From positions 1 through 64,000 of the forward strand of contig JAKSYS010000210.1 of the NCBI GenBank assembly GCA_022925895.1: a stretch of DNA of 64,000 bases, written 5' to 3'. This stretch comes from Fragilaria crotonensis (lineage: Eukaryota > Bacillariophyta > Fragilariophyceae > Fragilariales > Fragilariaceae). Below the pieces are notes generated by a model. That model was not told the origin of the DNA, did no database searches, and saw only the letters and a list, made by a program, of their open reading frames with translations. Both the position numbers and the translations under genes were made by a program. Positions 1,330-59,194 of the stretch are shown one piece after another; the stretch's first letter is position 1, and the number at the start of each line of letters is the position of its first letter.

Positions 1330-4300
1330 ATGCCATCTCAAACGTCTTCGAGACGATCCGATGGATCCTACCTCTCGTCTGGGTCGTCCACATCCTCGCA
1401 AATATCAGCCTCCTCCAGCTACCGGCATCATCACGCGGATCTAATTCCCACTCCAACAAAACCCCAACCCATTTTATTGCAAGACGCACAGCATGCTCCA
1501 AAAACGCGAGGCTCGCTGGGCCTGTTGATAGTCGGCTTGGGCGGACAAACAGGATTGGCAGTAACAGCTGGAATAGTCGCGAATCGATCCAATATATCTT
1601 GGAAGGGTGCCAAAGGTGAACCCCGGCAGGCATCCTATCAAGCCTGCCATACACAACCCTCAGCAATGACGACCATAGTGCCAAGCGACTTTCATTTGGC
1701 AAATGCGAACTTAGCCGCGATTGGCGGGTGGGTGAGTCCTCTGATACCTGTTCTCTTTCTAAACCCTCGTTTATGCTTTTGGCTCACACAAAAACGCTCT
1801 TTGTCCTAGGACGTTCGTCCGACCAAACTCGGCGACGCTCTTGTAAAAGCGCAACTTTTGGATTATGATTTGCAACGTCAGGTGTACGACGATCTGCAAA
1901 AAATAAAAGTATTTCGCGGTTACGGCGACGGAACACATGTATTGGACGACCGTGATGCCACGTCGTTATCAGACGTGGTGAAATGTTTGCGAGCCGATAT
2001 TCGATATTTTAAATGGCGCAACGGCGTCGTTGGCCACACGACAGTAGTTTGGTCAGCAGATGAGGATCTATCACAATTGAAATCGAATTATGATGATGCT
2101 CGTGATCTGTTGACGGCCATTGATGACAATGATGTTTCGATGCCACCCTCCGTAGTGTATGCAGCTGCCGCACTATTCGAGGGATGTTCGTTTGTTAATG
2201 CCACGGCATCTGCTGCTAGCATTTGCCCCGGAGTGATAGATTTGGCACAGCAACAACAAGGTGTTTATTGGTTGGGACCGGAATGTTATTCGTCTCTCAT
2301 GACGACACAGGGCTTGGAGAGATTGGGACATTCCGTCGTCACGTCAGACCTGTCGTGTGAAACAGTTCAACATGTGACGAGCTTGGGATTTTTGAGTCAG
2401 CCCCATAGCTTAGTTACGTATTGCCAGTCCAATGATGCCCTTCGTGTCGCTCCTTTTATCATAGATGTTGCTGTCTGGTGTGATTTCTTCTCCGGTAAGG
2501 GATGGCCGCATGACCAAGTCGTAAAGGCGCTAGGCTATTATTTTCCAACGGACGAGGACAACAACAGCGCAAGCCATTGGTCTTCACAATTGCAACTCTT
2601 GAAATCTCAAGCGCAAGCGGCTATTGACTCAAAGATACGAGGAGGTACAGATGTCTCGAAAAAGAAACGAGTCCGCATCCGATCCGAAGAGAAGACGACA
2701 GAATGGGCCATTCCGCACGATGCCAACATTATCTGCGCAGGCCTCGCCTGCGTTGACATGCAACTCATTCAAGCGACAGGCAATGGTGGTGAAAGCATTG
2801 ACACCTTTGAGGGTGAGAAAAGCATTGGCGGTGGGAGCGTCAGCATGGCCTGCAAAACCGTGGCGCGTCTTTGTTATGGAGCGCCATTAGAGGAAGAAAC
2901 GTATATGCAAGTGACTCCACCAGTTGTAAATTCCGTGATTCCCTTGTGTAAAATTGGAAATGACGACACAGGCAACAAGTTAATTCAACTTTTGGAGCAC
3001 TGCGGTAGTGCCTGTCGCAACGTTGAGACGAAATATGTAAGAGAGGCTCGGAAACGGGATGCGACTGCTAGGACAGCGTTGGCTGTTTTACCAATCTACA
3101 AGGACGGTCGACGAGGATGTTTCTTTGATGCAGCGTCAAACGCAACATTTTCTCCTCAATGCATGATCGATATGATTCATAGTTTGTCATCCTTGTCAAC
3201 TGGACCACAATTAGATGTCAGCCACTTATCCGACGATGAGTTGGATGAGTATCAGGATAGGGTGGAGGGTGCTTTGCCGACGTATGGAGCGTTTTTGTTT
3301 GGTTATCCCCATCTGTTACCCAAGCTGCAAGGGGAAGCCTTGGCTAGTGTCATGCAGGAAGCTCGTGGTGTCATGGTTGACGGTGGCATCGTAGCGCTTG
3401 ATTTAAACGGTGTAACGGAGGGCGCTTTCGCACGCAATGGAGCTCTGCGCAGCGTTAGTGACCTTCGAAGTGATCCAGTCATTGGGCCTGCCCTGCAACA
3501 TGTGGACCTGTTGCACATGAACGAGCATGAACTAATGTTGCTGACTGGCTGCGAGATCCGAAATGAACCCCACTCACAGCTTGACGACGAGTTCGCCATT
3601 GCAAGTGCTATCAATTTGTTTCTGCTGTGCGGTGTTGGCATCGTTGCCGTCACACGAGGAAGCAAGGGCAGCTTTGTAAGCTGTAGCGACGAGAAGCGTT
3701 TTAGCCAAAACCGCATGTTGCCAGCTTCGTGGGTGGACTGCACGGTTAAGATCAACGCCACTAGGCTGCCGAGCGATACTATCATGAACAGCAATGGAGC
3801 AGGCGACTCCTTCACGGCAGGATTGCTCGTCGCCGCCATGTTGCGTCACACTGGCATGACGGTGCCAGTTCGAGAAGAGGGCGAAGACTCGTTCGATTCT
3901 GGTATGCAGCCGCTTTCTCCGATCCCCGTGGCGACGCCCTCTCCGAAAAAGAAGGTCATGACGCCGTATCAGTTGTACATGCGAGAACATTATGTCTCGC
4001 TGAAACAACAATGCAACGATGACAAGAAGGCTATCTTCACGAAATGTCACGAAATGTGGGAGAACGAAACTGACGAAATCAAGTCCATGTACGAACGAAA
4101 GGCACGGGATGAAGATGAAATGTCTCCTGACAAGACTGATCTCACCACACGCCTTGTGCAAGACTTGAATACCATGGATGCCTCGACTCCCCGTAGCAAC
4201 CAGCATTCAAGTCCAGCACATTCCAACCAAAAGAACGTATACATGGCCAACCGATCGCTTAATTTAGAGTCGGCTGTTCAGTTTGCAAGCCTTGTTGCCG

Positions 4301-4401
4301 CTCATCATGTTGATGCATCGACGCGGGACGAGTTGCACATTGACGTGGGGCGACTTTTGGATCGATCTCTCATTCTGCAAGAAGGACTAGAAGAAATCTA
4401 A
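1330..4401 (+). CDS. Fusion protein: myo-inositol-phosphate-synthase-like domain + PfkB kinase with inserted HMG box
   Basis: Two exons, 1330-1731 and 1810-4401, give about 997 residues. The intron (1732-1809, GTGAGT..CTAG) is phase 0 and joins IGGW to DVRPTKL, matching the GGWDISNMNLADA block of myo-inositol-3-phosphate synthase. Residues 1-60 are Ser-rich. Residues about 64-390 follow that synthase: nucleotide-binding loop GLGGQTG (69-75), VVWSADEDLSQ, then the counterpart of the SPSTLYA..PGLIDLA block. The catalytic GGDDFKSGQT segment reads GPECYSSLMTTQ and the NHLGNNDG region is absent, so synthase activity is doubtful. Residues from about 434 are a PfkB-family kinase: Gly-rich GGGSVSMACKTVARL, LHMNEHELMLLTG, and the signature NSNGAGDSFTAG (about 793-804) with the catalytic Asp. 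An HMG box (about 846-910) sits between that helix and the last kinase helix (about 951-975). Plant myo-inositol kinase is a PfkB enzyme, so an inositol role is possible but inferred. The ATG at 1330 was chosen as the first in frame. Confidence 0.85.
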
Positions 4402-4703: not shown

Positions 4704-6343
4704 CTATTGGAACTGATGTCCATCGAAACGTTGAGGCTCGAGCGCCTCCAAAAGTGGTGAAGCCATGTGCTCATTGCTTGGGATTTTCAAAACATCTTGC
4801 AATCGCTTGCAGATGTCACTGAGAGAACTCTCTTGGTCAGTCTCGCATGGTTCTTGTTTGGCCATTGTCACTGGGTGCGTCTTCTTCAGGCGGTCACCGT
4901 TCTCAGCATACCATTTGAAATACTTGGCGCTTTGATCAGCGCTTAAGGTGGAAAGAAACAGGTTTTCGCTGCGGCCCACAGTAGACTGCCCATGGGTCAA
5001 AACTCCTCGCTTCATATTGGACACCATTTTGGTGGCATCGGCCATGAGTCTTCGATTATGTGGCAAGGTGACAGACTCGCGCGCGCTCTTACAAAAGGCG
5101 AGAATTTTTTCCTCCTGATCGACGCTAATGCTCAATTCATAGCAAACCAATGGCCAAAGTCTAGTCGGTTCATCAGGTCCGGATTTCAGGGTTCTATCGT
5201 CATCTTCTTCATCTGCGTCGAGAAGCCCATCGTTGGAAGGATAACTCTTTGTTTCCTTTGGTAGCGCCTTCTTCCAAATGGTGGTAATCTCTTCGCCAAC
5301 TTGCTTGGAGCTGAGACGTCCGATAACACGTGACGGATCGATCTTGATCTTTTCTTCCTTCCCAGCAGTGAAAAATGATCCCTCTTGTTTCGTGAGCCAC
5401 AAGATAAACACTTGATACTTCGGAAGCATCAATTGTCGTAGAGCCGAATACTGAAACGAGGTGCAGTTCTGACGAATAGCACAGTTCGGACCCAGTGAGT
5501 CTAGCAACTCACGAATTGACTCTGGATCCACAGACTCCTCTGGTAAGTTTTGTATAGCATTACTCCGAAGTCTCTGCATATTATCCTCCATGTCATTCAA
5601 TTTCAATCTTCGCTCTACTTCAATTTCCCCTTGTAACCCGTTGACCTTCGCTGACAATCTAGCCAAATTTTCCTTCTTTCGTCGTCGCGACTGACGAGCT
5701 GATTCTCTATTTCTCGCCAATCGCTTGGCCCGACGTTCTTCAGATTCTTGAGGCTGCTGCTGCGACGGAGGCGGAGGATACACTGGGTGGGCGCAAGCGC
5801 GTAGGCAGGTACTTGTTGCTGCTGCTGGTTCATCAAGGCCATGGCATTGACTTGATTAAGCCATGCAACATGCTGTCGACGACGTTCGACTTCTGATTGA
5901 TCAGTAGGATTTCGTGGTGGAGGGGGAAGCATTAGCATTTCTTGAGGCGTTCCCATCGTTGCTGCTGGTGAAATAGGACTGATAGAGGGGGGAGACGTAT
6001 TGGCGGGTCGATGATTGGGATGCTGGTGATATTGATGCAAGACGGGACCTCCGCTGACGAGTGTTGCTGCCATCGACGAGAGAGACGACGATGACGACGA
6101 CGCCGAGCCCAATGGCGCTGCGCGTGGCACTTTGGAGCCTTTCGACGACGATGAACCGTAGAAATGCACAGCAGGAGTTCTAGTCACCGATGTCAAACTT
6201 TGAGGTTCTGCAACGCCACCAAAGCTCCTCTGGGATTGTAGTGCATGTTGATCTCCGAGGAAATATGACAGTAAATGATCTGAAAATGGAATGTGAACGT
6301 GATAGTCAATATCAGTGTCAAATGGGTCACCGTAGAAAGACAT
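4704..6343 (-). CDS. bZIP transcription factor
   Basis: Two open frames join into one protein of about 530 residues. Residues 1-185 (from ATG 6343) are Ser-, Pro- and Gln-rich. The second frame (down to 4704) opens with a Pro/Gln tract followed by a classical basic region, RNRESARQSRRRKKENLARL, with the N-x7-R DNA contacts. The leucine-zipper heptads after it are short, as in many diatom bZIPs. The remaining 300 residues are acidic and mixed and were not recognised. The frame change falls near 5783. Either one base is missing (reading ...ALAPTQ-VYPPPPSQQQPQ..., one G short at CAGTG), or a 53-nt intron at 5812-5760 (GTACCT..CGCAG, phase 0) removes it. The missing base is favoured because such gaps recur across the window. 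Expected to act in the nucleus. Confidence 0.8.
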
Positions 6344-29980: not shown

Positions 29981-32900
29981 ATGATACCCATTACTGTTGA
30001 CTCGATCTTCGATGTCATCTACCCCCTGAGTCGGCTGCTTGTCACTGGTTTCATCATTTGGTATGCCAGTGGATGCACAAGGTATGTCAACTCACGCTAC
30101 TGTACTACCATTCTAGTCTATTTATACTGAGATTTGTCTAACGCACTTGCTTGTTTCGCAGCCAACAGCGGCTTTTTTCGGGTTTCCTAACTGCCGTTGT
30201 GTCTGGGTTTCTGACCTTTACATTCCTAGAACCTCTGTTCTTCCCAGTTGGGTTGGAAGTTGCGATTGTAGCACTATATATCCTCTCCATCAATGCTGCC
30301 TTCGTAGGCATGTCCCTTGGTGTCCTATTGCCGTTGATTTTTCCAGGACTCTGTTTTGGTGTTGCTGTGTCCCTCTTTGCTGGCTGTCTTATGACCATGT
30401 CAAACCCACTTTACTTTCCGGTAGCCAGTGCAGCTCTTGGCGTCGTTGGCGCCATCTTGTCAGCTCGGTACGTTCCCAGTGACGTATGATCACGGTCGCT
30501 GTCTTGCTTCCTCTACAAGCTGGCCTAATGTTGCATTGTTCACAGCTGGAGTCTGTCGGTGATGCTCGCACTAGCCACTATCCTTGTCGGAGGTGGCGTA
30601 GCGTCGACTTTCGTTGTCAAGTCGTTCTCAGCTTACTTGATGGACGTTGCTCGTGGTTACCAGTTCCATCCTTCGGAAACAACTGGATTTGAGGACTTCG
30701 ACTTGTCAATCTCCACTGAGATTCTTCTTGGCTTGGTCTGGACAGCATCGTCTGTGTTGGTTGCCGCATGTCTGGTTTATCGCGATGGCAGCTTTCGCAA
30801 TCTCAACTTCTTCTCCCTGTTCCGTTCCAATTACACGGCCGTCCCTACCACGGAGGAGGCAGGTCCTCAGCCGAAGGCCAAGATTGCCCATCTACCTTCT
30901 TTCCGCGATCCTCCTGCTAACGCCACGGATGCCTACAATGTCTTTGATCCTGCAGATTTGCCTCCCAGGCTTGCCGAATATGCTAACATGGTGTATTCGG
31001 CTTGCGAAGATCTTGGGAACTTTTTCGGTTTCCAAGATTCGTCTGTCCGCAACCAAGCTGAACACTTATTGATCCTGTTGAGTAACAATCGTCGTTACAT
31101 GAGCAGTCACATCCTTCCGGTTTCTGTCCAACCTCCCAGTCCCATTCACGCACTTCATGCCAAGGTCTTCTCGAACTACATGAAGTGGTGCCGCGCCATG
31201 TCGGTTCCTCCTAACTTTTCCAAGATGAATACCTCCATGTCGGCTCCACCAGCCGTCGGTAGTCGAGTTGTGGATTTGGTTCTGTGGTTCTGTATTTGGG
31301 GCGAGGCGCGAACCTTCGACACATGCCCGAGTGCTTGTGGTTCTTGTATCACAAGATGATGGAGGAGTACACACGAAGCGGGGATACAGCCAGACCCGCA
31401 GTCTCTACGCCGGCCACTACCTCGATAATGTGGTTGGACCTCTCTACGAAGTTGTTGCAAAGGTACGTCATGCGTGGCCATAATTTATCAATGTTCTGCG
31501 TGATTCCTCTGACTCTCTTGCTATCTTCTATCCCAGAATATGAGCTCCAAGTCTGACCACGTCGACAGGCGTAACTACGACGATTTCAACGAGTTCTTCT
31601 GGTCGCGAAACTGCTTGAAGTTCAGATACTCGTCAGAAATCATTGCAGAGGATGGCTCTGACGTTGAGGCAATCAGCATCCTATCTGGTCCGCTTCCTGG
31701 CGAGTCACTGCAAGGGATTGCCGATGGTCTTGCGAACGCCCCAAAGACTTTTCTTGAGAAACGTTCATGGTTGCGTGGGGTGCTTGCACTACACCGTCTG
31801 CTGGAATGGCACATAGTTACATTCTACCTCCTCAGTCATCGCCTTCTCTCGAGAACTAATCTGGGGCTGGGTCTACTCTCTACAGCTTGCGAGTGGAGTC
31901 TTCTGGATTTTCAATGCTCTTCATTTGACCTGGAACCTTCTTGAAGTCTGGGGTTCCTACCAGAATTCAGCTCACTGGCACTTCTGTTTGTGGCTCCATC
32001 TTTACTTTGGTTGCACGCTTTTTGATTCTTGTCTATCAAAGTCTGTACTTGATGTGGGCTTTCTCGCCTCAAAAGGGAGTCTATCTTGGCATCGAAGCTG
32101 ATTCAACGTTTTGGTGGTGGCAGTACATTTGGCTATCACTTCTCTGTATGATTCCATACTTCGTGGAATGCGTTTTCCAGATCTGGCCAGCACTTTCCAC
32201 TAGACTGTTCACCAGTCAAAATGATTACATCCAGTCGTTCATGAATATTCTGTACCCACTCAGCCGCTTGTATGTCGGAAAGGAAGTCCACGAATCGTTC
32301 CAGCACGCCGCTGTGTACATCTTCTTTTGGATAACGCTGATCACGTGGAAGCTATTCTTCTCGTATGTGTTCGAGGTGTATTCGATGGTCCTGCCATCCC
32401 TTCAGCTGACCGACGATTACCTCAATTACCCAAATCAAAGTTTCGCGAAAATGATGCTCCTATTAACAATGCGCTGGCTTCCACAGTTCCTTGTGTATCT
32501 GATCGATATGAGCATTTGGTACGCTGCCTGGCAAGCATTTGCAGGGACAGCCGTTGGATTCTCTGACCATCTTGGAGATGTGCGGTCTATTGATGACATT
32601 CGCAAGAACTTTGGACGCGCGCCAGAAAACTTCTGCAAGAAGTTACTCTCTCCTGATGCCGGAAGCCGCCGTGGATCGTCGGCTAGCTTTTTGGGAGGTA
32701 CTAGCACGCAAAGTTTGCCACACGTTGGCGAGGGTTCGTCGTTGCTGGGTAGCGATCCCCATAAGCTTCAGAGCTATGTCAACAGGTTGCTCGACGTGCG
32801 TATCCAAAAATGGGTCATGTTCAGTGCAGCCTGGAACGAGATTATTGACCACTTCCGCGATGAGGACATTGTATCAAACACAGAAAGCGACAACTTAAAA

Positions 32901-35900
32901 TTCAGTCGATTCGATGGGTTTAGCCAAGCAATATACTTGCCAGTTTTCCAGACTGCGGGGGTCATCGAGAATGTTATGGCAGAACTTGAACGACCTTCGG
33001 ATGAGTATAGATGCTCAAAGACCGGCGTTGTGAAGGACGATATTTTCTTCAAGCCCATCACTGAGAACGTGATTATGCTGACAGCAGTTTCCGAGATGTG
33101 GGAACTCGGCAGCTACCTTTTCACGCAAATGCTTGGCCCTGTTCATGCCAAAGATATCACCTCTGTGATGGGAACCATCTTGAAATGGTCCGAAAACGGC
33201 ACTCTTAGCAGCCATGTCCATTGCGAGAACATCCGCGGTGTGATGGATAATTTCGTCGCTTTGATCAAGATCATGTCGAAGGGGCTCGGTAAGCGTAAAC
33301 CGGCCGCTAAGCATCGCAGTGGCGTTAAAGCGAGAACCGTTGAAAGCAAACCTGCTGATACGAGGCGATCAGGATTCCGCCGCGTTGTCAGTGCTGGCTC
33401 CCTCACAAGCCTCGACAACGACCAACCATCAAAGACGGAGAAGAGAACAGACCCACTCCCTGGGCTGAAAAGCAAGGAAATGATTCACGACGCGTTGAGA
33501 GACCAAGTACGCGATAAATTCAGGAACATCGCACACGCCATGAAGGGACTTGTGAAGAACACTTTGACAGACCCTGAAAGTCAAGATGTTGCAGACCGTA
33601 TTACCTTCCTATTGAGCATGGAGAATGGATTCCTCTGGGATAACGCTTATGCGTCTGACCAGTTGGATGACATCTCCAAGAATGTGACGTATAAGGCGGT
33701 TCTCAAAAAGACATATGGCCTTGTCGCGTGCCACCCCGACGATGTCGAACCCAAGTCGAAGGAGGCTCGGCGTCGTTTAACATTCTTCGTGAACACTTTG
33801 TTCATGGACATGCCTGATGCTCCTTCTGTGCATGATATGTTTTCGTGGAATGTTCTCACTCCATACTATTCTGAGGATGTCACGTATGGCAAGGACGACC
33901 TAGAAAAGCGAAGCGACGCCCTCGGTGTCTCGACGCTGCTCTACCTCCAAACCCTTTATCGTTCAGACTGGAACAATTTCTTGGAGAGGATGGGCATAAC
34001 CGACGAAGAAAAGATTTGGTCTAAGAAGTACGTTGATGAAACAAGGCGATGGGCTAGCATTCGTGCGCAGACGCTGTCGCGCACTGTAAATGGAATGATG
34101 TACTACGAAAAGGCGCTGCGTTTGCTAGCCAACCTTGAACGTTTAGACGGTGACACCACGAACGACCTGATGGGTGAAAAGTTTGGCTACATTGTTTCCT
34201 GTCAAGTCTATGGAAATATGAAGAGCAATCAAGATCCAAAAGCGACTGACATTGAGGATTTGATGCACCGTCACCCTCACATGCGTGTTGCGTACATCGA
34301 TACCATACGTCTCAATCGATCAGGTTCGTCCATGTACTACTCAGTCCTTGTCAAGAGCGATGGCAATGGTGGAATTCAGGAGGTGTATCGTGTGCGCCTG
34401 CCAGGCAACCCAATCGTCGGAGAAGGCAAGCCTGAGAATCAGAATCACGCCATGATTTTCACACGTGGAGAGTTTTGCAAACCATTGACATGAACCAGGA
34501 AGGTTATTTCGAGGAGGCCTTAAAATGAGAAATTGTCTTCAGGAGTTCGCGAAACGTGAAGGTCCTCTCCTACCACCATCCTTGGACTGCGAGAGCACAT
34601 TTTCACTGGGAGCGTCAGTTCCTTGGCCAACTATATGGCTCTCAAGAAATGTCGTTTGTCACACTTGGACAGAGGGTGCTGACGCGACCACTTCATATTC
34701 GATTGCATTACGGTCATCCCGACGTTTTTGACAAACTTTTCTTCATCACCAGGGGAGGAATTAGCAAGAGTTCCAAGGGAATTAACCTTTCGGAAGATAT
34801 CTTTGCTGGATACAACAATATTCTTCGAGGTGGCGCGGTCGGTTTCAAGGAGTACCTTCAGATCGGAAAGGGCCGTGACGTCGGCATGAGCCAGATTTAC
34901 AAATTCGAAGCCAAATTGAGCCAGGGTGCTGCTGAGCAAAGTCTTTCGCGAGATGTTTACAGAATGTGCAACCGCTTGGACTTTTTCCGACTCTTGTCTT
35001 TCTATTACGGAGGCATCGGACACTACCTGTCGAATGTGCTGACTATTCTGACGGTCATCGTGGTTGTGTACTTGATGACGGTGCTAGCCATATTCGACCT
35101 CGAGAGGATCGGAGATCGTCTTATCACCCCCATGGGTACTATTCAGATGCTGTTGGGAGGTCTCGGTCTTTTGCAGACTATTCCCCTGTTTGCCACCCTT
35201 GGCGTCGAACGCGGTTGGTGGGCAAGTATTCAGGAGATATTCTATGTCTTCGTGACTGGAGGACCACTCCATTTCATGTTCCACATTCAAACCAAAGCTA
35301 CCTACATGGCTCAAACCATCTTGGTTGGGGGAGCGAAGTATCGCCCGACTGGCCGTGGTTTTGTCACTCAGCACACGCCTTTCGACGAGCAGTACCGATT
35401 CTTTGCCGCAAGCCACCTGTACCTTGGAGTGGAATTGGCCGCTTTGCTGATCCTGATGGGCATCTACACAGACGCTGGACAATACATTGGCAGAACCTGG
35501 TCCTTGTGGCTGGCTTCATCCTCATTCTTGGCCAGCCCTTTCTGGTTTAATCCTTTGACTTTCGACTGGAATGTTGTTACATCTGACTATGACATCTGGT
35601 TACGCTGGTTGAGGTGCAGCACCGGGGGTGCTTCGAAGAGTTGGGCAATGTGGTGGGTTGAAGAGAATGCCTTCTACAAGAGTATGCCACTTCCATCCAA
35701 GCTGTTTTACATCGTTAAGGCCGCCTTATTTGTTTTGATCGGTGAAGGCATACGCCGCTCAGACCTGTTCCAAGCCGACACGGCGCTGAACAAGCCAATT
35801 GTTGGAATTGGAAAAGTGCTTGGTTTTATCGTTGCGTTGGTCCTTGTGGGCCGTGTATTCACGGCAAACGAGCGAAGCCTTGCCTACCCTGTTCGACGAA

Positions 35901-36604
35901 CCATTGGCATCATGATTTTCACGGGAATCGCTGTCGGCATTGTCACTGTCTTTGTGGAAGACACAAACTGTATTCGATATGCTGTTGCTGCATACTTTAT
36001 GATTGGTGCGGTGTGTATGCTCGGCCTCCTCTTTGGTTTCAAGTTCGTCAAGCATTTCTATTTTATTCATGACTTGGTCTGCGGACACATCATTTTCACG
36101 CCTATCTTTATCCTCGCAGCTCTTCAACTTCCTCGTCACGTTCAATCCTGGTTGTTGTATCACAATGCGCTATCTTCTGATGTTGTTGTAAGCGACATTC
36201 TGAGATACGCTAGAAAGAGCCAGGAATCTGGTGGTAGTGCTGGTGAGAATAGTGATCTGGTGGAGCAAGTCGCTGAATTGAAAAGGCTTGTGCTGAAGCA
36301 GGAACAATTGCTAACTTCGTCGGGCATTGCTAGCGGCAATAGATTGGCTACGAGCACGACCACTGTTTCAGGCAGTTCGACGGCTGCACCAGGTTTGCTC
36401 AAAAGTCAAGGCGAACGAGAAAAGTTGCCTGGGTACGGCAGGGCATTGAGCATGTCTGGCATTGACGTATGGGGCGATATGGCTCTCGGCGACGGGATGT
36501 CAACCTCATACACTCAACCTTCGCAAGATACTTTCTACGATACGTCACGGCCGCAAGCACAAGGTTTTTCGTTTTCTCAACCTGATGCCATGCCGCCTAG
36601 ATGA
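29981..36604 (+). CDS. 1,3-beta-glucan (callose-type) synthase, GT48
   Basis: A polytopic glucan synthase of about 2,100 residues. Exon 1 is 29981-30081, followed by introns 30082-30161, 30468-30545 and 31463-31536 (all GTA..AG). The N-terminal part has several membrane spans, then a soluble stretch with LVLWFCIWGEA..NLRHMPECLWFLY, the FKS1 domain. Next come RNYDDFNEFFW, a second membrane block, and the catalytic GT48 region: RRLTFFVNTLFMDMPDAP, RAQTLSRTVNGMMYYEKALR, FGYIVSCQVYG, VAYIDTIRLNRSG, ENQNHAMIFTRGE and DVFDKLFFITRGGISKSSKG. The C-terminal membrane domain and a short coiled coil follow. Family members polymerise UDP-glucose to beta-1,3-glucan. In diatoms this is the backbone of chrysolaminarin or of callose in the wall; the target membrane is not shown here. 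About eight frame breaks, all readable as one- or two-base gaps, cluster at 31300-31975 and 34470-34655, while 32.0-34.4 kb and 34.7-36.6 kb are clean. Probably consensus errors. Confidence 0.85.
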
Positions 36605-44624: not shown

Positions 44625-47600
44625 TTACCGCGCCGTTTTTGAGAAATAATTCGTGATCAATGATTGACTGCCTCCGTCCAGTTTATTGTCCTCAATAGAT
44701 CTCCGAACCCGTCGCAGCCATCGTCGTCGATTGGATGCAGAACCATTAACTAGACGTTCCAATGAGCGTTCGCAATAGTGTCGATCACCGGGTCTCAATA
44801 GGTGTGGTTGCTTATGAAGCGTCTGGATCTCCGCAATTTCCGCCGACCGTATATGTAGTTGCTCGTCGTCGCCCGGAGTATGTAGAATTTCATTACGAGC
44901 AGTCCACATTCGTGTCGCGTGATCGTATAGAGCGGTCATACAGGATCGCATACGTTTCCAACCCGTGGCGGTATCTATTCGTTCTGTGTTGTACATATCC
45001 AGACACGATAGCCGGAACCACGATTTACTCAGCAGTCCAGATATTGCCTCCTTCCAGCCAATGCTACTTTGTGACTCCAAAGCTTCTGCAATAGGTGCAC
45101 GCAAATGGGAGGAATATTGTTGTATATCGGGCGCAAACTGTGAAGTTGATGTTGTCCAGTGTTCAATGCCTTCCACGAGTAGGTATCGTAGGGGGTGCGT
45201 ATCTTTAGTGACCAACTCTTGTCTCAATTGTCGAAGACTTGTGTTGTATTCAGGATTGGAACTGCATCGGAGAAGATGACTGTATGATTCGTCGTTCACT
45301 TTACAACATGGACATAGTTTGAGTGTTGGATCTTTAATGCGCGACTGGTCAAATCGCCTCTGACCGATGGGAAGCTGTCCGTGCACTCGCTTCATCTGCG
45401 TAACCTGACGACTGGGTCGAAGTCTTTTGAAATACCTGCCGAAGTTAACAAAATCGATCTCGTCCCATGTGGCGTCCGACCATTGATGTTTTTCCTGCAT
45501 GTACCTTCGAAGATGATAACCATTAATGTGATACCGAATGCAGGAGTCGTACTGACTAGTAAGACGCTTGCCGTTTATTGATATCGACACCTTTTGAGAG
45601 TCTTGATGATCTACCACCGATGAAGACCTCAACCGTCCTCGAAGCCGGTATCGTGTTGCCAAAAAATCAGCGTCGATGTTGAGGCGAGCCTTCCAAGGTA
45701 AGGCATCGTAGGACTGCAGTGTATCTTGGTGGCCTTTTACCCAATCTGGTCTAAACGGTCGCCGAAGTTCTCGAAGCAATTGCGAAATCAATGATATCAA
45801 GTCCGCATCGTCCGGCATACGAGCCGGTGAATATTGTGCTGCTAACGCATATTTCCGAATCCTTGAGATGGCAGCTTTACTGTCTGTTATCCAGACGAAA
45901 GAACATCGGTGTCGAAGTCCCCACATCCTTGAAAAAGCTGTCACCAAGAGTAGCGATGATGCGCACCCAGCGAGTTCGCTTCGAGTTGATGACTCAGCCG
46001 AGACGAATCCATCTACGGGACCAGAGCATCGGAATAAGACACACTTCCTGGTGGCCAGTACCCATCCATGCGTGCCTGCACCGCCGTCCAGTCCGCCGTC
46101 TGACGCGATATACAGTTTTTCTTTTGACCGAAACGCACGCCATATCTGTAAATCAGTTGCTTGTTGTTGTAAATCAGCGAGCAGTCGTCGTTGAGACCTT
46201 GGAAATGTTTGCACGTATGTGTTGATGTTGTCGAACGACGTTGGTACTAGAATGGCGTCTTTCTCTGGAACCGAGCCCGGGGACAGAGGAGGATTTTTCC
46301 AGTAAGGTACATATCGGAGATAGGATGACCGTATGTACCTTTTCCAGAGCCGACGCTGGTGAGGCGTCGGGGTTTTCTGTCGAGGCCATTTAGTATTGTC
46401 GGACCAAGACTCCGGTCTTATGCCATCTAGAGCGGAGAGAAGAATGGATGACGGCCTCTGAGGATCCGAGAGATCGGCAAGCGTTTGAACCTGAAGAAAG
46501 ACTCGAACCAAATTAATGTCTCGTTGTTGGCTTTCATTGTACCGCTCCAGGTGCTTCGATTGCATAATGTACTCGTCCTTGTTGGATTGCAATGGCGGAA
46601 TATAAACATCGGTCATCGTTATCGCCATGTTATGACATGACAAAAATCGACGAACGGACAATATCCATGTCGGGGTCAAGTACGGGACGTAGATTGATGG
46701 TTGTTCGAGGAGAGGTTGTCCGATGCCTGCTTCGAGTTGCGAATATTGTAAATTCATTCGAATGAGATTTCCCGATTCCGAGTCTGAGTATATTGAGTTT
46801 CGAAGATATTTGATTGCTTCGATGCCCGCTTCTGTACGTAGGTCGTACATTGCCAGACCACCCATTTCAAGAGGTCCGTGTCTGATGGAAGTCGGCAAGT
46901 TGCCATTAACATGCATTTTTTGCAACATTGTCCGGATGATGCGGTGCTGAACTCCGGCCAATTCTTCCTCATCCACAGCAAGAGCCGGTAGACTATACCT
47001 CATAGCAGGAATATAGATAGACTGATGGAATATCCGAATATCCGTTGCCGTGAGTCTGGATGTCGCGATGCGGGATGCGTATCTTTCAGATTTTTGTCGC
47101 AGCTGCTTGATGTGATGCCCGAAATCGCCGTTGGGATTTAAATATACCCCGAGCATTCTCGTCGATTCGTCGACCGAAGTCCTCCGAATTGCGGTTGTTG
47201 ATGTCTGCGAGCCCTGATGAAGTTGTATTGTAGGATCTGTTGGTTGGATCTTGCGAAGACGTGGTCGACCGCTCTCCCATTCCCAATACATAACATACCA
47301 CGAGCACTTAGCTAGATTAAGTTTTCCGCCGGATAGAAATAGTAAATGTTCCCATGTTTGTGCTACCTGTTGGAGTCTTCCTATTAATTCGTCGTAGCTG
47401 TGTTCCCCAGCCGATGTGAATCCGAGAGAAGTGTCGTCGACAAAAGCGTCTACCAGGCGTTGATGTGTCCTATCTCCCCGAAGAGGAACGAAATTTATCC
47501 TGTCCGGTACGAGTCTGTCCAACGTGTTCAGGAGAATGACAACCAAGGTGAGCCAAACAGAGGGGGAAGCGCCGCTTCCTTGGCCAGTGCCAAAAAGTGG

Positions 47601-50328
47601 CTCAAACGGTGTACCTTGATAGTTATTGTCGGAGACGCCATAGGCTGTCTTGACAGTGTATTTCATGAACTGTAAAGCCTCAGAATGGACGCGTATGGCA
47701 TTATCTGGCATTCCACATCGACGTGCTGCAAGCATTCCAAGAGCCACAATAATCCTGTCGTAACATGCCGATGCATCGTTATCGAATCTGGCCAGATCGT
47801 GTTTGAGCACTCGACACAGGTCGGTAGTTAGTTGCGTGAGCATGACAGGTCCATTGCTTGCCTATTTGGCACGGACCCATGCTGACCGGGATGAAGGATG
47901 TCGAGTTCCAGCGCCTTACGTACAAGGCGGTGTCCCCATTGGAGCTTTAAAAATAGATTGAAATCTGCTTCGAACAGATGTATGATACGAAGACGATGTA
48001 TTCGTGGACGTCCGGGATCTTTTTCTATGAGAACATTGGTGGCATTACTCCAGCGTGGAATTGCGATTCCTCTTGAAATAGCAATATTCATGAATTGTAC
48101 CAAACATTTCAGAAGATCGGGATGTTGAATGATGGCCTTATAATGCCCAAGGTGACGACCAGATGGTGACGTAGACGTTGACTCCGGCCATTGTTTGAAC
48201 CCTTTTTTACATCGTTCTCGGAGAGCTCTGTTGATATGGGTGGACCGTCGAGGACGTGGTCGGGAATAACAAATGATGCAAGAAATTCTGTCAGCGCATA
48301 GTCGTCGCCACACAGCTCAGGAGGTACTTCGCCTTTCAGAATAGACTGTGAAACCGGCGAGAGACTGGAGAAAGTAATTGCATCATGAAGTACTCCATTT
48401 CCGCATGGGGACTCTGCCGCCGCTCGAAAAGAATGGCGATTGTAGTGCAATAACTGGCGTTCGATGTCATCTCTATTGATCACTGTCTCCCATATAAGAC
48501 TTTCAGGATCTGAATGTTGGAGAAGATTATAGATTGCAGCTTCGTCGTGCGATGATGTGTCAAGCAGTTGTGGTACCATAAGCTTGGTAAGGCCGGAACG
48601 TTCTGATGGGTTGATTACCTGGCGGAGAGTTCGAAACTTTCCTCGACATACTTCGCTTGCTATCGTTTGCTTCACAATCTTAGCTTTGCGAAATGATTCC
48701 TGTCGAGTATCGGGGTGCTCATCATCCTCGTAGGTTTCCAACAAGTCCTGATAACATTTCATTCGCAGTGGTATAGATGATTTTTGACAGCGGCGAAATA
48801 CGCGGTGTGCTCTGTTGTAGTGTTCTCTTATGTCCCGAAGAGAGAGCCTTTGACCAAGATATGGTAAACCGAATGTTGCATCGAATGATTGAACGTGTTG
48901 TTGCCATCGTTGAAAAGTCTTGGTGTAGTCGTATGACGAATCTTTTGCCTCCCAGAGTCGTAGCTTCCAATACCGATAAATGATGGCTGAATTTCGGAGT
49001 GCTGGTGACCATTGAAAATTCTTTGGTGGTTTGCGAAGAATAGCTTCAGAAGCCTCCATGGCTCTTCCCTGGTCATTGTCCCATTTAATTAATGCCTGTC
49101 GAACTTCTTCACGACTCTGATTATGATGTGTCGCATATAGTTGATTTATACGGTCGATCATCTTATGTTGAGAGTAATATCGTAACATTGAGTCGTGATA
49201 CGTTGAAACATGTTCAGGATTACCGGTATGAAGAGATCTGGCGGATGGTGGGAGCACTTTCGATAGATTATGGTCGAATACATCTTCCATCTTTAGGTCA
49301 ATATATAACCCTCGGTGATCCGATTGCGGTCCGTCAAAATATGACAGAGTTCCTGACCGATCGATGGATTTCTGAACCTGTTGACACCCGAAGATATAGT
49401 CGATCCGTCTCGAAGCAGAACCAATGTATGTCGACGGAGCTGGATCATTATCGTGAAGATCGTGCAGATTGCATGCTTGAATAAATAATTCGAACTGGGG
49501 ATCTGTGTCGATCGTCGAGTTTGCGTCAAGCATCAACAGGATCATGTGACCAGCCTCCTGAAGTCGAGTGATCATGTTTTTGAGATCTGTAAGAATCTCG
49601 TGACGCGGATTGTTGTGACGCCGTTGATGCTCTCGAAAATATTCATATTCTCGAAGAAAGGCGCTACCAATCGGGGCCGAGTTTGGTGAACCAGAGCAGA
49701 CCCTGTATGCCGTTATTATCGAAAGGAAAGTCTTATTGCGACCCATGAGAGAGATTCCGCTCCATCGACCGAGTCCCGTTGGATCCGTAAGATCTACTTC
49801 ACCATTGATCGTCGATGTCAAGCGACCTGTTGCTAAGGTAAGACTTCCTCCTGACTGAAACGTCTCCATTGGCAGGCACTGGTCAATGTCCCTGTTAGGA
49901 GTTCCGAAGGTTACTTTGCTTTGTTGGTAGTGTCGTCTGAGGAGCTGTCTGAATTCGAAACTGATGTGAGGGTGTGACCAACATGTATTTGTTTCCGCAA
50001 GACCGGCGATGTCGATATCATATGCTTTCAAGCAGGAAATGTAGTAACGATAGTCTTCTCCCGAAGAATTGTAGGTCAGACCTTTGACATTCTGAAAGAA
50101 AAATCGTGTTGTACCTTTCTGCTTTTGAAGAACGGGATCACCATAAGACTTGTCGGGGTGCGAATCTGCGGGAGAGTCCCATATTTTTCGACCTGGACGA
50201 CGGGAAGGAATGAGAAGAATTGGAGACATGGCAAGAGAAGGAATCGAAGGGTCTATGAGTGGCAGGTGTTTTGAATGGCGAGAAACCGTGGTTTCCTGCG
50301 AATGGGAGCGCATCCTCGTTGATCTCAT
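44625..50328 (-). CDS. LINE copy 2 ORF3: APE endonuclease - RT - RNase H - CCHC finger
   Basis: About 1,900 residues, starting at ATG 50328, which overlaps the ORF2 stop as ATGA. Endonuclease: FFFQNVKGLTY, LAETNTCW, MLDANSTI, SASRRIDYIFG and GPQSDHRGLYIDL. RT: TSTSPSGRHLGHYK, NVLIEKDPGRPR, motif A ARFDNDASACYD, motif B GTGQGSGASPSVWL, and motif C AFVDDTSL, that is FVDD instead of the usual YADD. RNase H has all four acids: IASDGGL, STRSELAG, ITDSKAAI and NIDADFLA. Zinc finger: CPCCKVNDESYSHLLRC. The C-terminus ends NYFSKTAR. Two one-base gaps interrupt it, at the A run near 48209 and near 47851. It nicks target DNA, copies the element RNA in place, and removes the RNA with its own RNase H. 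Confidence 0.88.
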
Positions 50329-51580
50329 GATGGAGACCCTCCGCCGAGAGAGTTTTGGGTATTGTATCGACTCTCTAGGTCGGTGGTGATGTCCTCAAGA
50401 TTCTGGGTTGTCATTGGAACGGAGTGATGGTCTTCCTCGTCCTGCGATTTGCCTTGACTTTGGTTGTCGTCGTCAACGTTCATATCGTCCTCTGCTCCGT
50501 CAAGGAGTACCTCGATTCGCTCTTTATCGCCTCTTACTGGTTTTTGCTTCTTCTTATCAGGAGACCTAAATTTGCCGGAGTCAGATGATTTGGTCGATTT
50601 CGATTCCATGGACCTCAAAGACCCGCTGCCATCTTCTATAGCTTTGACGGAGTCTATCTCTTCATCGTCTTCCTTCTCTGGGATTGAAGCTGCTGGAATG
50701 GATGCATGTGCCTCCGTAACTCGTGCAACATCAGATGGCTTAGTTGATGACGATGCGTTAGGTGACGGTCGTCGAGCCTTCGTCGCATCTTCCCTCTGTG
50801 GTAGGGTTGTCTCCGCTACAAGACCCATCAGTAGACTTATCTTGTCGCTCAGGATATTGATGGATGCTCCAAATCCGGCCTGTTTTTCCATCACTACCAA
50901 CATTTGACCGCTCATCGTCTGTAATTCCGCCGTTTGTGCCTGTTGAGCTGTCTCAAGCTTCGTGTCAATATCGGTCTTCATGGAGTCTAACTTTGAATCT
51001 ACCTCATCAAATCTATGCAATTGTCGTTCGATTTGAGACAATCGTTCGGATGAGATTTTATCTTTTCGATCGAAGTCATTCTGTTGCCGGGTTATGCGTG
51101 CCTCGAGTTCCAAAAAACGAGCGCTTGATGTGGAAAGCATCGATTGTCTAGACTTTCCTGACATACTGTTCGAAGTCGTCGACACTGTTGCATTGTCACC
51201 GGTCGATTGATTACGATACTGATTACGAAGAGATTCGAGGGGCGTTGGTGGGCGTTTGTGCATTCCTCCGTCATCCTGTTTGCGGTCAGGATCTTGGCTG
51301 TCCGTCGATACGTCGGAATTGACTGAGTCTTGCTGGTCAGAGATCACGCTTGTTGATGATCCCAGTGCCGTGTCTTGGGGTGTGTCTGTTAACTCTTTTG
51401 ACTCCGATAACTTCGCAAGAAAGTTCAAGTTCGCTGTTAACTTTGGGTTCACATGAATAACCGACGGTGGTCCTACACTGTCTCTAAAGCGTGCTTCGCG
51501 CTGAGTGAACGGAAAACCTGCCTCTTGTATACTTCCAGGGCGCCAATAGCTGCTTTTTCATATGTTGGTGGTACCAGCAT
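50325..51580 (-). CDS. LINE copy 2 ORF2: coiled-coil protein
   Basis: ATG 51580 (MLVPPTYEKAAIGALEVYKR) aligns with the ORF2 start of copy 1. One base is missing in a T run (CAGGTTTTCCG, near 51526); beyond it the frame continues through PPSVIHVNPKLTANLNFLAK to the stop at 50325. About 418 residues. Central coiled coil (ARFLELEARITRQQNDFDRK ... LSQIERQLHRFDEVDSKLDS), then KQAGFGASINILSDKISLLM, then a charged disordered tail. No zinc knuckle. It overlaps ORF1 by 97 nt and ORF3 by 4 nt. Confidence 0.75.
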
Positions 51581-53258
51581 ATATGCCTTCTGATCAGTCC
51601 GCCGTTAACAACATCACATTGTATGTATGAGAGCCCATCCGTTGATTTGATTGTTTTTGACCATTCGCGTAGCGACCTTTCGACTGTTGTTCCATCGTCC
51701 TTATGTTCGGTGCGAATAGTGTCTAAATTTGCAAACATTGGAAAAAGTGGAATTCCTTTTAGAGACTTGATATACTTGTCGTGAGTTTTGAAGAGATTTC
51801 CGACCTGGTCCTTTGTCATGTCTGCGAAGGCAAACCTAGGTATGTAAACTGGTGTTCGATCTCCAGTGAGGTTGCCTAAAAGTGCTTGGCTGAGTGGATG
51901 GACATGCCGTTCTCCGCATTGGATGACTAAGTGATTAATAGCTTGATCCAAAGGAGTTCTGCGGTGGAGAAGTATGTCGAACATTGGCGTCGAATCCGGT
52001 AGAGTACTTCGGAGATACTGTAAGTATCGGAGACGATGAGTAGTCATGGGAGCCTTGAGAAGGATATATCCCGCGATTGTCAATTTTCCACTTGTACTTT
52101 TGGAATTCGAAAAAGAAACCGTAGCCCTGTACCTGTCAAGAGTCGCCTTTGTCGTTTCTAAGTTCCTCCATGCCGATGGCGTTTTGCTGTTGAATCCGAA
52201 GCGAATTGGAATAATGACCATTGATTGTGTTGGCATCAGCGTGATTGATGGACTAATGAATGATCGGACTTCCTGAGGTGTCATCTTGGAGATTGAGTTG
52301 TACTTTTCCAGACCTTCGGTTCCCCAGTGGTACAGGAGACCGTCATCGTCGCTGAAGAGATCGTTTAGGAGAGAATAGATTGAATTTGTCAAGGCTTCCG
52401 TTTGGCGAGAAGTACTTGACGTATCAATTCTGGTTGACCAACGAATCGTGACGCGATAAGTGCCATCGTTGACTGGGACGTTTGTATTAGGGATTATGGC
52501 TGAGACTTTCCCGTCTGATGAGCCTGTCGACAAACCATCTGAGTCCTGGGTCTTATTTGCAGTAGGAGCTGTATCAAACTTGACTTGTTTCTCGCTATCG
52601 ATCGGTGAGTCATTAGGAATGTCAGGATTGGTCTCCTTCTCAAGAATTGTATTCTGAGAAGGTGCAAAAAGGGATGCTTTACGGGATCGAGTAAAACCGA
52701 GACTTTGCAGATTCATGGACTTGGTTGGCTTATGGGCTGGATTGTGTCTTCCTTTCGCTGGTCCTACTTTCTTCCATGGAGTCATCGAGAAACCTTTAGT
52801 TGTCGCCAGAGAATGCCAAGTGGTTTTAAGAGTGTCGATGGTTAGAAGGGATGGATCATGGGTCGCTAAGAACTGTTGGGAGATCTTTGTTGCCCAAGCA
52901 TTGAGTTTGTCGGGGATCACCTTCTTTCTCTCAATATGGTACATATAATTGTACCAAATGACACTATGGACTCGAATAGGATCGGTTTCGGCCTCTCTCC
53001 ACATCATCTCGAACAGGTCTCCTGTGACGGCATATTGTCCAAGTGTAAAGTACCTGTACCATGCAGTCGGGGTGTGAGCGTTTCGAAAGTCGGTTTCACT
53101 GTGAAGGCGATTGTATCGATCTTTTGTTGTTTCTGGTGGTTTCGGATCAAACTCAGGAGGCTCTATCCACTGCTTGGTAGAAAAGCCAAAGACGGGATCA
53201 TCGTCTGGGGGAGCGAAGCAGGTGCGAGAGAGTTAGGAACGAATGATCCTCCCATCAT
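51484..53258 (-). CDS. LINE copy 2 ORF1: protein of unknown function
   Basis: ATG 53258 (MMGGSFVPNSLAPASLP) lines up with copy 1 (MTETADPPFSTLLTSLP) if one C is missing in the C run near 53208. After it, DDDPVFGFSTKQW matches DTDDSFGFLLKDW and the frame is open to 51484. About 591 residues. Conserved blocks: TPTAWYRYFTLGQ, VIWYNYMYHIERK, SKSTSGKLTIAGYILLKAP, ILLHRRTPLDQAINHLVIQC and VYIPRFAFADMTKDQ. No known domain recognised. Confidence 0.78.
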
Positions 53259-57205: not shown

Positions 57206-58150
57206 GCTGACTCGGCCACCGTCGCACAATGGGTGTAAAAAGACTCACATTTGCGAAATTGTCGATGATCAAATGCCAAAGCACTGACCTGGGAAGATCC
57301 AGAAAGGCAGATTGCTGACTTGTGATCCTTTGTTGTGTTGGTGTCAAGATCTTGAGACCTTTTGTAGTGCTGAGTGCTGAGTTTACTCTCCGTGTAGGGT
57401 CTACTCCAGCACTAAAAAGAATTTTTATCGTCTTCAAAAATTGATAAATGCATACTGAGTCTACGTGTCCCTACGATATGTAGGCTCAGGATGAAACAAG
57501 CCATACCAGCTATGGTGATTCACTGATTCACTAGGTAGAGTAGGCAAAGTCTTACCCGACCGTAGGAGTCTCAGAGTGATTAGTATAGCCGGAGAGCCGA
57601 TAAACCCATTGATTGGATGTCCTTTGGAAAGTCTCGAACCTATGCCCCAGAAAGTGCAACAAATTGAAACGACCGGTATCATAGTAGAAGAACGTGGTAA
57701 TAGATCGAGTTCGACATATACGTAATCCAACTATGAGTAGTGGTGTACAGCGTTTACATTCTAGATTTCAGAACAATGCTCTCGATTTTCCCTTAATGTA
57801 TGACAAGGTTTTCCCTATAATCAAAACCGTGTTTGCGTGTTACACGAAGACCAAGGTGTTCGGTTGTCTCATGGAATATGTCGTAATACAATATTTATTG
57901 AAAGAAATACTCCGAAATGACCCGTGCTCGTTCGCTTAATGAATTCTTGCGAACTGGACATTTCATCTGGTACTAAAGTTTGATGTAGAAAGTGACGAAG
58001 TTTTGGCATGCATTCGGGTTTGAGCCCGAAGCCTGTAGGTTCCTACGTGTTTCTGTAGCTTCCATGGACTTCGTTCGAGGAGCAAAACACGAAAACCAAC
58101 CTCTGGTAGTCGTTTTGTCTTGAACATAAGTTCAGACTGTGGGTGCGAAG
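57206..58150. other. Intergenic region upstream of the HSF gene
   Basis: About 950 bp, no gene recognised. The last 200 bp presumably contain the HSF promoter. Confidence 0.35.
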
Positions 58151-59194
58151 ATGTTCACCAACATCCCGTCGCGGCAGAAGACAGCATCAGCCCTCGAGAG
58201 TTTGGGCATTTCGGCAGATGGGAGAGGGTCAATGATATCTCCGGCTGTGTTGGCGGCTGTTGGTGGATTGGCTTCGTCCCTTGCTCGTTCACGTCCTGAG
58301 CTGTACTCGGAGTATGAGCCAATCAACTCAATACTTGCACGCGATTACACGCCCCGAAATGTGAATTCAGAGATTCTTGCTGCCCTTGTTGGTCGCAGGC
58401 AGGATGCCCTTTGCGAAGCGTTGCTCGGTCGTTCCCTTCCTTTTTCAAACCCTTTGGAAGCACTAGTCGCTGCTTCCCCTCAGTTATCGGCGACGGAGGC
58501 TTTCCAACAAGGAGCCATGGTGAATCAATACTTCCAACGCGGACGAGAAGACGCCCTGTTGTCCTTGCTGAAGTCCGAGGCTCTTGGTCCTTCGTTCTTG
58601 CCACGAAATCCTGCCGTGATACCTTCCGCAAGCGTGCGAACAGAACCAGTTATCAAGGAAGGTCAGGATCGTGCACCCGAGATTACTAACGCCGTTGCCT
58701 TGGAGGCTTTGGGCAGTTTCGGGATTGAGCGACGCCATCGGAATGTCCCTTACTTCGATGCTTCTAAACTGGAGGATCCTGATCCCACCTTTGTCAGCAA
58801 TCGCAGACCGCGTGGTGGCATCAGTGAACCTTTTCCAGAAAAGCTCCATCGCATGTTGAGAGAAGCCGAAGATGGCGGTGAATCCGATGTAGTTTCTTTC
58901 TACCCTCACGGTCGTGCCTTTTCCATTCACCACGCCGAACGCTTCTGTCGCGAGGTTATGCCTCGGTATTTCAAGCTGTCCAGATTGAGCTCCTTCCAAC
59001 GCCAGCTCAACCTCTACGGATTCACCCGAATCACCGCAGGTCCAGACACCGGTGGTTACTACCACGAGCTCTTCCTCAAGGGCCGTCCTGCCTTGGCCAT
59101 TCACATTAGGCGAGCAGGTGCCCCAAAGGCTCGTCGCATTGGTCGCACTCTAAACCGGCGCACCCTCCTACAGTACCTGATTTCTATTCCATGA
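58151..59194 (+). CDS. Heat-shock-factor-type DNA-binding protein
   Basis: 347 residues from ATG 58151 (MFTNIPSRQKTASALESLGI). The N-terminal 220 residues are Ala/Leu/Ser-rich without a recognised fold. The HSF DNA-binding domain lies at about 226-322: EPFPEKLHRMLREAE, VSFYPHGRAFSIHHAERFCR and the recognition helix region LSRLSSFQRQLNLYGFTRI. It lacks a clear heptad-repeat trimerisation region, as do many diatom HSF-like factors, and the domain is C-terminal rather than N-terminal. Near 59172 a shift by one missing base would give the alternative end VPDFYSMTPVKTANEEG..., stopping at 59259; that end looks more natural and fits the window-wide base losses. Nuclear location inferred. Confidence 0.85.
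   Translation: MFTNIPSRQKTASALESLGISADGRGSMISPAVLAAVGGLASSLARSRPELYSEYEPINSILARDYTPRNVNSEILAALVGRRQDALCEALLGRSLPFSNPLEALVAASPQLSATEAFQQGAMVNQYFQRGREDALLSLLKSEALGPSFLPRNPAVIPSASVRTEPVIKEGQDRAPEITNAVALEALGSFGIERRHRNVPYFDASKLEDPDPTFVSNRRPRGGISEPFPEKLHRMLREAEDGGESDVVSFYPHGRAFSIHHAERFCREVMPRYFKLSRLSSFQRQLNLYGFTRITAGPDTGGYYHELFLKGRPALAIHIRRAGAPKARRIGRTLNRRTLLQYLISIP

Follow-up and report, generated by a model that had tools for sequence, protein, structure and literature searches.

A gene near the start of a Fragilaria crotonensis contig (JAKSYS010000210.1, assembly GCA_022925895.1; the window analysed is its first 64,000 nucleotides) appears to encode, in one piece, a domain resembling myo-inositol-3-phosphate synthase (MIPS) and a PfkB-type kinase. 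Its layout raises three questions: whether the gene is truly one gene, whether either half can still act as the enzyme that it resembles, and what a protein built in this way might do. An earlier note, made from the DNA letters alone, had suggested that two routes to inositol phosphate might be joined here, the synthase half having become a sensor for the kinase. We examined the gene model, the domains and their motifs, and the relatives of each part in the same genome, in other sequence collections and in the open literature.

One reading frame joins the two halves

Splicing of the two exons (Table 1) yields 997 codons without a stop, for a protein of 997 amino acids, preceded upstream by an in-frame stop at 1306. 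The coordinates and the splicing proposed earlier therefore hold. Retention of the 78-bp intron would bring in an in-frame TAG, and its removal restores the GGWD block of MIPS, the junction falling inside that block (GGW/D), as had been claimed for IGGW-DVRP. Exon 2 is open throughout its 863 codons (residues 135–997), which encode the larger share of the synthase part along with the linker, the kinase and an HMG box. The Ser-rich residues 1–60 had no domain match.

Table 1 Features of the fusion gene, with positions in the window (res, residues of the protein)
Feature	Position	Strand	Content
Exon 1	1330..1731	+	Ser-rich N-terminus (res 1–60), start of MIPS-like domain, loop GLGGQTG (res 69–75); PF07994 from res 63
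Intron	1732..1809	+	78 bp, GT..AG
Exon 2	1810..4401	+	863 codons + stop, one open frame
Remainder of MIPS-like domain (res 135–379)	1810..2544	+	PF01658 block absent; 36 residues (2260–2367) instead
Linker (res 380–431)	2545..2700	+	basic KKKRVRIR, res 418–425, 2659–2682
PfkB-type kinase body (res 432–815)	2701..3852	+	D in CVDM, GGGSVSMA, NEHE, GSKGS, NGAGDSF
Kinase insert (res 816–919)	3853..4164	+	holds HMG box, res 848–903, 3949–4116
C-terminal piece (res 920–997)	4165..4398	+	probable last PfkB helix LNLESAVQFA (951–960)

Fusions of this kind can arise on paper, when a gene model joins neighbouring genes or an assembly mis-joins contigs, and the present assembly is a draft. Such an artefact is nevertheless very improbable here, as the junction of the halves lies inside the one long exon and the codon use there is coding-like: under a model trained on eight stretches from the same genome (3835 codons), the fusion frame outscored the other five in 20 of the 21 exon-2 windows and in all three windows of exon 1. 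The sole frame-keeping GTRNGT..YAG intron candidate of 45–400 bases in exon 2 is inside the kinase, not between the halves. In the genome (62.1 Mb, 881 contigs), the exon-2 protein matched only itself and a canonical MIPS, and the kinase half, in a protein search with the best candidates scored, matched only itself; these searches thus showed no second copy of either half from which a chimera could have been drawn. At the level of sequence, the synthase–kinase fusion is real, and the claim of a single protein stands to that extent, one reading frame joining both halves. An alternative in-frame intron at 3729–3791 was set aside, as its removal would delete sequence that aligns to the stretch before GAGD.

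The synthase-like half lacks the catalytic domain of MIPS

The NAD-binding domain of MIPS (PF07994) was found at residues 63–379 and scored 131.3 bits (cut-off 25; E = 6.9e-38), which places most of residues 60–400, the span named in the earlier note, in the synthase family; the MIPS likeness claimed for the first 390 residues was right in kind, but its extent should be about 63–379. Neither the whole fusion protein (Pfam, E up to 1) nor the part encoded by exon 2 (E up to 10) matched PF01658, the catalytic and assembly domain, and the single PF01658 match in the genome is in the canonical MIPS gene. A profile of eight MIPS (the genome's own and seven plasmid-borne prokaryotic ones) matched residues 58–284 at 103.5 bits and 321–379 at 4.2 bits, over columns 7–237 and 336–392; the latter residues are weak in this profile, yet the Pfam match extends through them. 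The skipped columns, 238–335, hold GxDFKSGQT and NxLGNxDG, in the region of PF01658, in agreement with the loss of GGDDFKSGQT and NHLGNNDG reported from the letters.

The loss is unevenly spread. Seven MIPS share 50 invariant columns (L022, short at its N terminus, was excluded). Of these, the fusion retains 13 of 18 in the Rossmann N region, counting the start Met, and 1 of 21 in the catalytic region, where 16 are deleted; the C-terminal region still has 4 of its 11. Four canonical lysines (K354, K358, K395 and K471), which we take to correspond to the yeast active-site lysines 369, 373, 412 and 489, align with Leu, Gln, a gap and a gap, in a part where the alignment is unsure; residues 226–363 of the fusion contain no Lys at all. 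The nucleotide loop GLGGQTG was found as claimed, with G61, G66 and G69 conserved; just past it, the otherwise invariant T73 and T74 are changed. With MIPS (PF07994 plus PF01658) the fusion thus shares the Rossmann half with its GxGGxxG loop, GGWD and a C-terminal DxLxxxP block, at 28.6% identity to the genome's own MIPS over 248 aligned positions, and differs from it in the deletion of PF01658, the missing catalytic lysines and the fused kinase.

The canonical MIPS elsewhere in the genome has 537 residues and three exons, with intron positions different from those of the fusion. Its presence would have left the fusion copy free to diverge. In an eight-row tree the fusion grouped with this canonical MIPS (support 97/95), a placement that is suggestive given the long branch of 3.89 changes per column. 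Because PF01658 is missing, residues 226–363 have no Lys and a complete MIPS is kept separately, this half very probably no longer works as a synthase. It may still bind NAD(H), to judge by the kept glycine loop and GGWD. The sensor role suggested earlier for this half is reasonable in so far as it describes a degenerate ligand-binding part, the catalytic domain being lost and the NAD loop kept.

A fully working bifunctional enzyme, synthase plus myo-inositol kinase, with both halves producing Ins(3)P, is for these reasons improbable in the extreme. It has in its favour only the family resemblance of the two halves; the absence of PF01658 and of the catalytic lysines argues strongly against the synthase activity, and no inositol-kinase signal emerged from the other half.

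The kinase half retains phosphate-transfer motifs

The second half matched PfkB (PF00294) at 48.6 bits (cut-off 25.8; E = 9e-13), and a profile of 12 PfkB sequences scored it at 50.5 bits, where the highest of 1000 shuffles reached 3.4. Motifs of predicted phosphate transfer are retained, namely GND.G, NxxE (NEHE in HMNEHELM, 703–710), GSKGS and NGAGDSF (796–802), the last of which carries the GAGD anion hole and base. PfkB/ribokinase-type kinases share GND.G, NxxE, GSKG and GAGD with the fusion, which is 23–26% identical to four ribokinases from viral contigs; unlike them, it has an insert holding an HMG box and lacks the usual Asn of the GG motif (GGGSVSMA), where Ser or Met stands in its place, depending on the alignment. 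The Asp of DxxGAGD is also replaced, by Asn.

Naming a substrate from these resemblances is another matter. The best NCBIfam match, a weak one, was ribokinase (28.7 bits against a cut-off of 299.65), and solved structures gave ribokinases at E = 0.007–0.04, with no inositol-kinase chain among the matches. The model of IolC, the inositol-catabolism kinase, came third in NCBIfam and was weak like the others (22.2 bits against 300); the substrate of IolC is 5-dehydro-2-deoxygluconate. On this evidence the earlier proposal of a myo-inositol kinase, and with it of two joined routes to Ins(3)P, is not supported; myo-inositol as substrate is an unsupported guess. A kinase profile search built on a five-row alignment was uninformative for naming the substrate, as four of the five rows were ribokinases.

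The insert follows the GAGD helix and precedes LNLESAVQFA, probably the last helix. When residues 816–919 were omitted, the PfkB match extended to profile column 288; the stretch then scored 44.0 bits instead of 36.3 and the total was 58.1 instead of 50.5, compared with at most 51.6 bits for 20 cuts of the same length in the kinase body (a lenient control, in that matched kinase sequence was removed). The isolated C-terminal piece scored 1.8 bits against the PfkB profile and did not beat its shuffles (best of 1000, of which 860 scored, 7.4), so that support for LNLESAVQFA as the last PfkB helix, which we consider probable, comes from scoring with the insert left out. The complete PfkB kinase of the earlier note is accordingly sound in its PfkB match and its NGAGDSF, and has to be qualified for the HMG insert at about 816–919 and for the GG motif without Asn.

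These departures from the family bear on a further reading, in which both enzyme-derived halves are inactive and the protein is a structural component of a complex concerned with chromatin or transcription, as FLN is in the plastid transcription complex. The Asn-less GG motif, the Asn before xxGAGD and the interruption of the C-terminal part by the insert are all consistent with such a scaffold. However, GAGD and NxxE are kept, and the Asn before xxGAGD recurs in L008, another kinase of the genome, so that this change need not mean lost activity; overall we regard an inactive scaffold as unlikely. The role of FLN proteins within the plastid complex is itself called unknown in the cited passages (PMC3409070), and terms for activity, looked for in the same source, were not found there.

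PfkB kinases joined to other domains probably occur elsewhere in the genome. L007 (1183–3189) is another PfkB fusion, with the ribokinase-like part first and a second part that looks like a HAM1/inosine-triphosphatase domain, and L008 is probably a PfkB kinase fused to another enzyme.

A divergent HMG box probably lies within the kinase

The kinase insert contains a match to the HMG box (PF00505; E = 1.7e-5) that the earlier note had missed. It exceeded the Pfam cut-off of 25.4 bits narrowly in all four queries that contain it: the whole protein gave 25.6 bits, exon 2 gave 25.9, and the kinase half and the isolated insert gave 26.7 and 29.0. Against an HMG profile from the diatom's own genome (16 of 30 fetched HMG loci, picked for full-length matches, two pairs being identical), the insert scored 12.0 bits, and 2000 shuffles, of which 1892 scored, reached at most 6.9; the whole protein, at 7.3 bits, was near that best shuffle. 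A phmmer search of the stretch against solved structures listed six chains, all of them HMG-box proteins, at E = 0.15 and worse. Comparison with the 30 HMG loci and with six more HMG regions gave no close relative of the box (best E = 0.073); the genome total is 49 HMG matches, this one included. Taken together, the scores point to an HMG box that is probably real and divergent. Like HMG-box proteins, the fusion carries a PF00505 box over the Pfam cut-off, and unlike them it carries the box within a metabolic kinase.

Basic and phosphorylation-type motifs accompany the box. The linker motif KKKRVRIR aligns with the basic tail of canonical MIPS and may therefore be the old end of the synthase. 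A CDK-type SPKK site adjoins the HMG box, and TPTK and SPDK sites also occur in the protein. Motifs this short and basic are common; one occurs in two of eight proteins of the genome used for comparison, canonical MIPS being one of the two.

The presence of an HMG box shifts the likely setting of the protein from cytosolic metabolism to the nucleus, and a nuclear location, to judge from the box and the KKKRVRIR linker, is probable. The main competing view keeps the protein in the cytosol as a small-molecule kinase, with the pseudo-synthase as an allosteric NAD(H)- or metabolite-binding or scaffolding part and the insert as a degenerate HMG-like helical loop that has no role on DNA. The kept kinase motifs and the weakness of the HMG box suit this view; it has to contend with a box that passes the cut-off in every query containing it and an insert that outscores all its shuffles, with the basic linker, and with the lack of support for any particular substrate. 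We consider a cytosolic kinase possible though rather doubtful.

Relatives in other collections and in the literature

Outside the genome, searches returned no relative of the exon-2 protein in phages; of the kinase half, or of the HMG and C-terminal piece, in plasmids; of the exon-2 protein, its MIPS-like part or its kinase part in viral contigs; or of the kinase half in prokaryote genomes. The same held for better-known queries: canonical MIPS returned nothing from prokaryote genomes and viral contigs, and neither a three-row alignment of bacterial MIPS nor L010, another kinase of the genome, returned anything from viral contigs. Since a MIPS match occurs in 43 records from plasmids alone, these pattern searches evidently miss distant relatives, and their silence says little.

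In open PMC text we found no paper describing a protein that unites the remains of a synthase with a kinase and an HMG box, which agrees with the earlier statement that no protein of this layout has been described. The main text of a study of the pH response of F. crotonensis (PMC9732472) does not contain inositol, pfkB, HMG or KAI2, and PMC12159174, on 49 newly annotated genomes, contains neither the word inositol nor the word fusion. The combination of parts is unusual; PfkB kinases fused to other enzymes already exist.

Neighbouring genes

The adjacent gene (4704–5783, minus strand), oriented tail to tail with the fusion, encodes a bZIP transcription factor domain (PF00170, E = 3.8e-7). Farther along the window, 1,3-beta-glucan synthase (PF02364) extends over two frames on the plus strand (31941–34493 and 34556–36604), probably one gene with an intron. 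A heat-shock-factor-type DNA-binding domain, of a family that is large in diatoms, is encoded at 58139–59194 (plus strand; E = 3e-21), and three long open frames of 1072, 739 and 507 amino acids at 44628–53007 (minus strand) had no Pfam match at E = 0.001. A separate search of the genome for silicon transporters gave 19 matches, 18 over the cut-off, with tandem domains within single frames at C97:29749–33762 (three in a 1456-amino-acid frame) and C771:21664–24330 (two in a 1008-amino-acid frame).

A possible regulator

The reading that we favour, tentatively and at somewhat less than even chances, is a pseudo-synthase/kinase that acts as a metabolite-responsive regulator associated with DNA or chromatin. 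Its first module would derive from a eukaryote-type inositol-3-phosphate synthase, of which the NAD-binding Rossmann part remains and the catalytic and assembly domain has been lost; from its sequence, this module should no longer make inositol phosphate, and NAD(H) binding has possibly been kept. The second would be a PfkB/ribokinase-type kinase with phosphate-transfer motifs, and the third the HMG box beside SPKK, which together with the KKKRVRIR linker probably brings the protein to DNA or chromatin. NAD(H), or a sugar or polyol with ATP, or both, would then set the shape or the DNA binding of the protein, with or without residual kinase turnover, as in regulators derived from enzymes. The signals for the nuclear and regulatory steps are weak, the HMG box being just over its cut-off and basic motifs being common.

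Each enzyme half has a precedent for such a role, in inositol synthase or sugar-kinase-like proteins that act in transcription. In the cited passages, Arabidopsis MIPS1 is a nuclear protein that binds the promoter of its own gene (PMC4844270), yeast Gal3p is a galactokinase-like regulator without catalysis, and plant FLN1/2 are PfkB-type parts of the plastid transcription complex (PMC3409070).

A more specific form of the regulator would be a nuclear sensor that links inositol and NAD metabolism to chromatin: the pseudo-synthase would read NAD(H) or glucose-6-phosphate, the kinase would locally make or read a sugar or inositol phosphate, and its opening and closing would alter the grip on DNA of the HMG box in its C-terminal part. 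We give this detailed version little credence. To our knowledge, and as far as the cited passages go, none of MIPS1, Gal3p and FLN1/2 combines all three modules of the fusion.

Enzymes with a second role in gene regulation, such as Gal3p, MIPS1 and FLN, usually come to light one at a time; in this case the make-up of the gene suggests a change of that kind. The weight of the fusion depends on its presence in other diatoms. If it is conserved among them, it would offer a ready test of how metabolic state might reach chromatin in an ecologically weighty group of algae.
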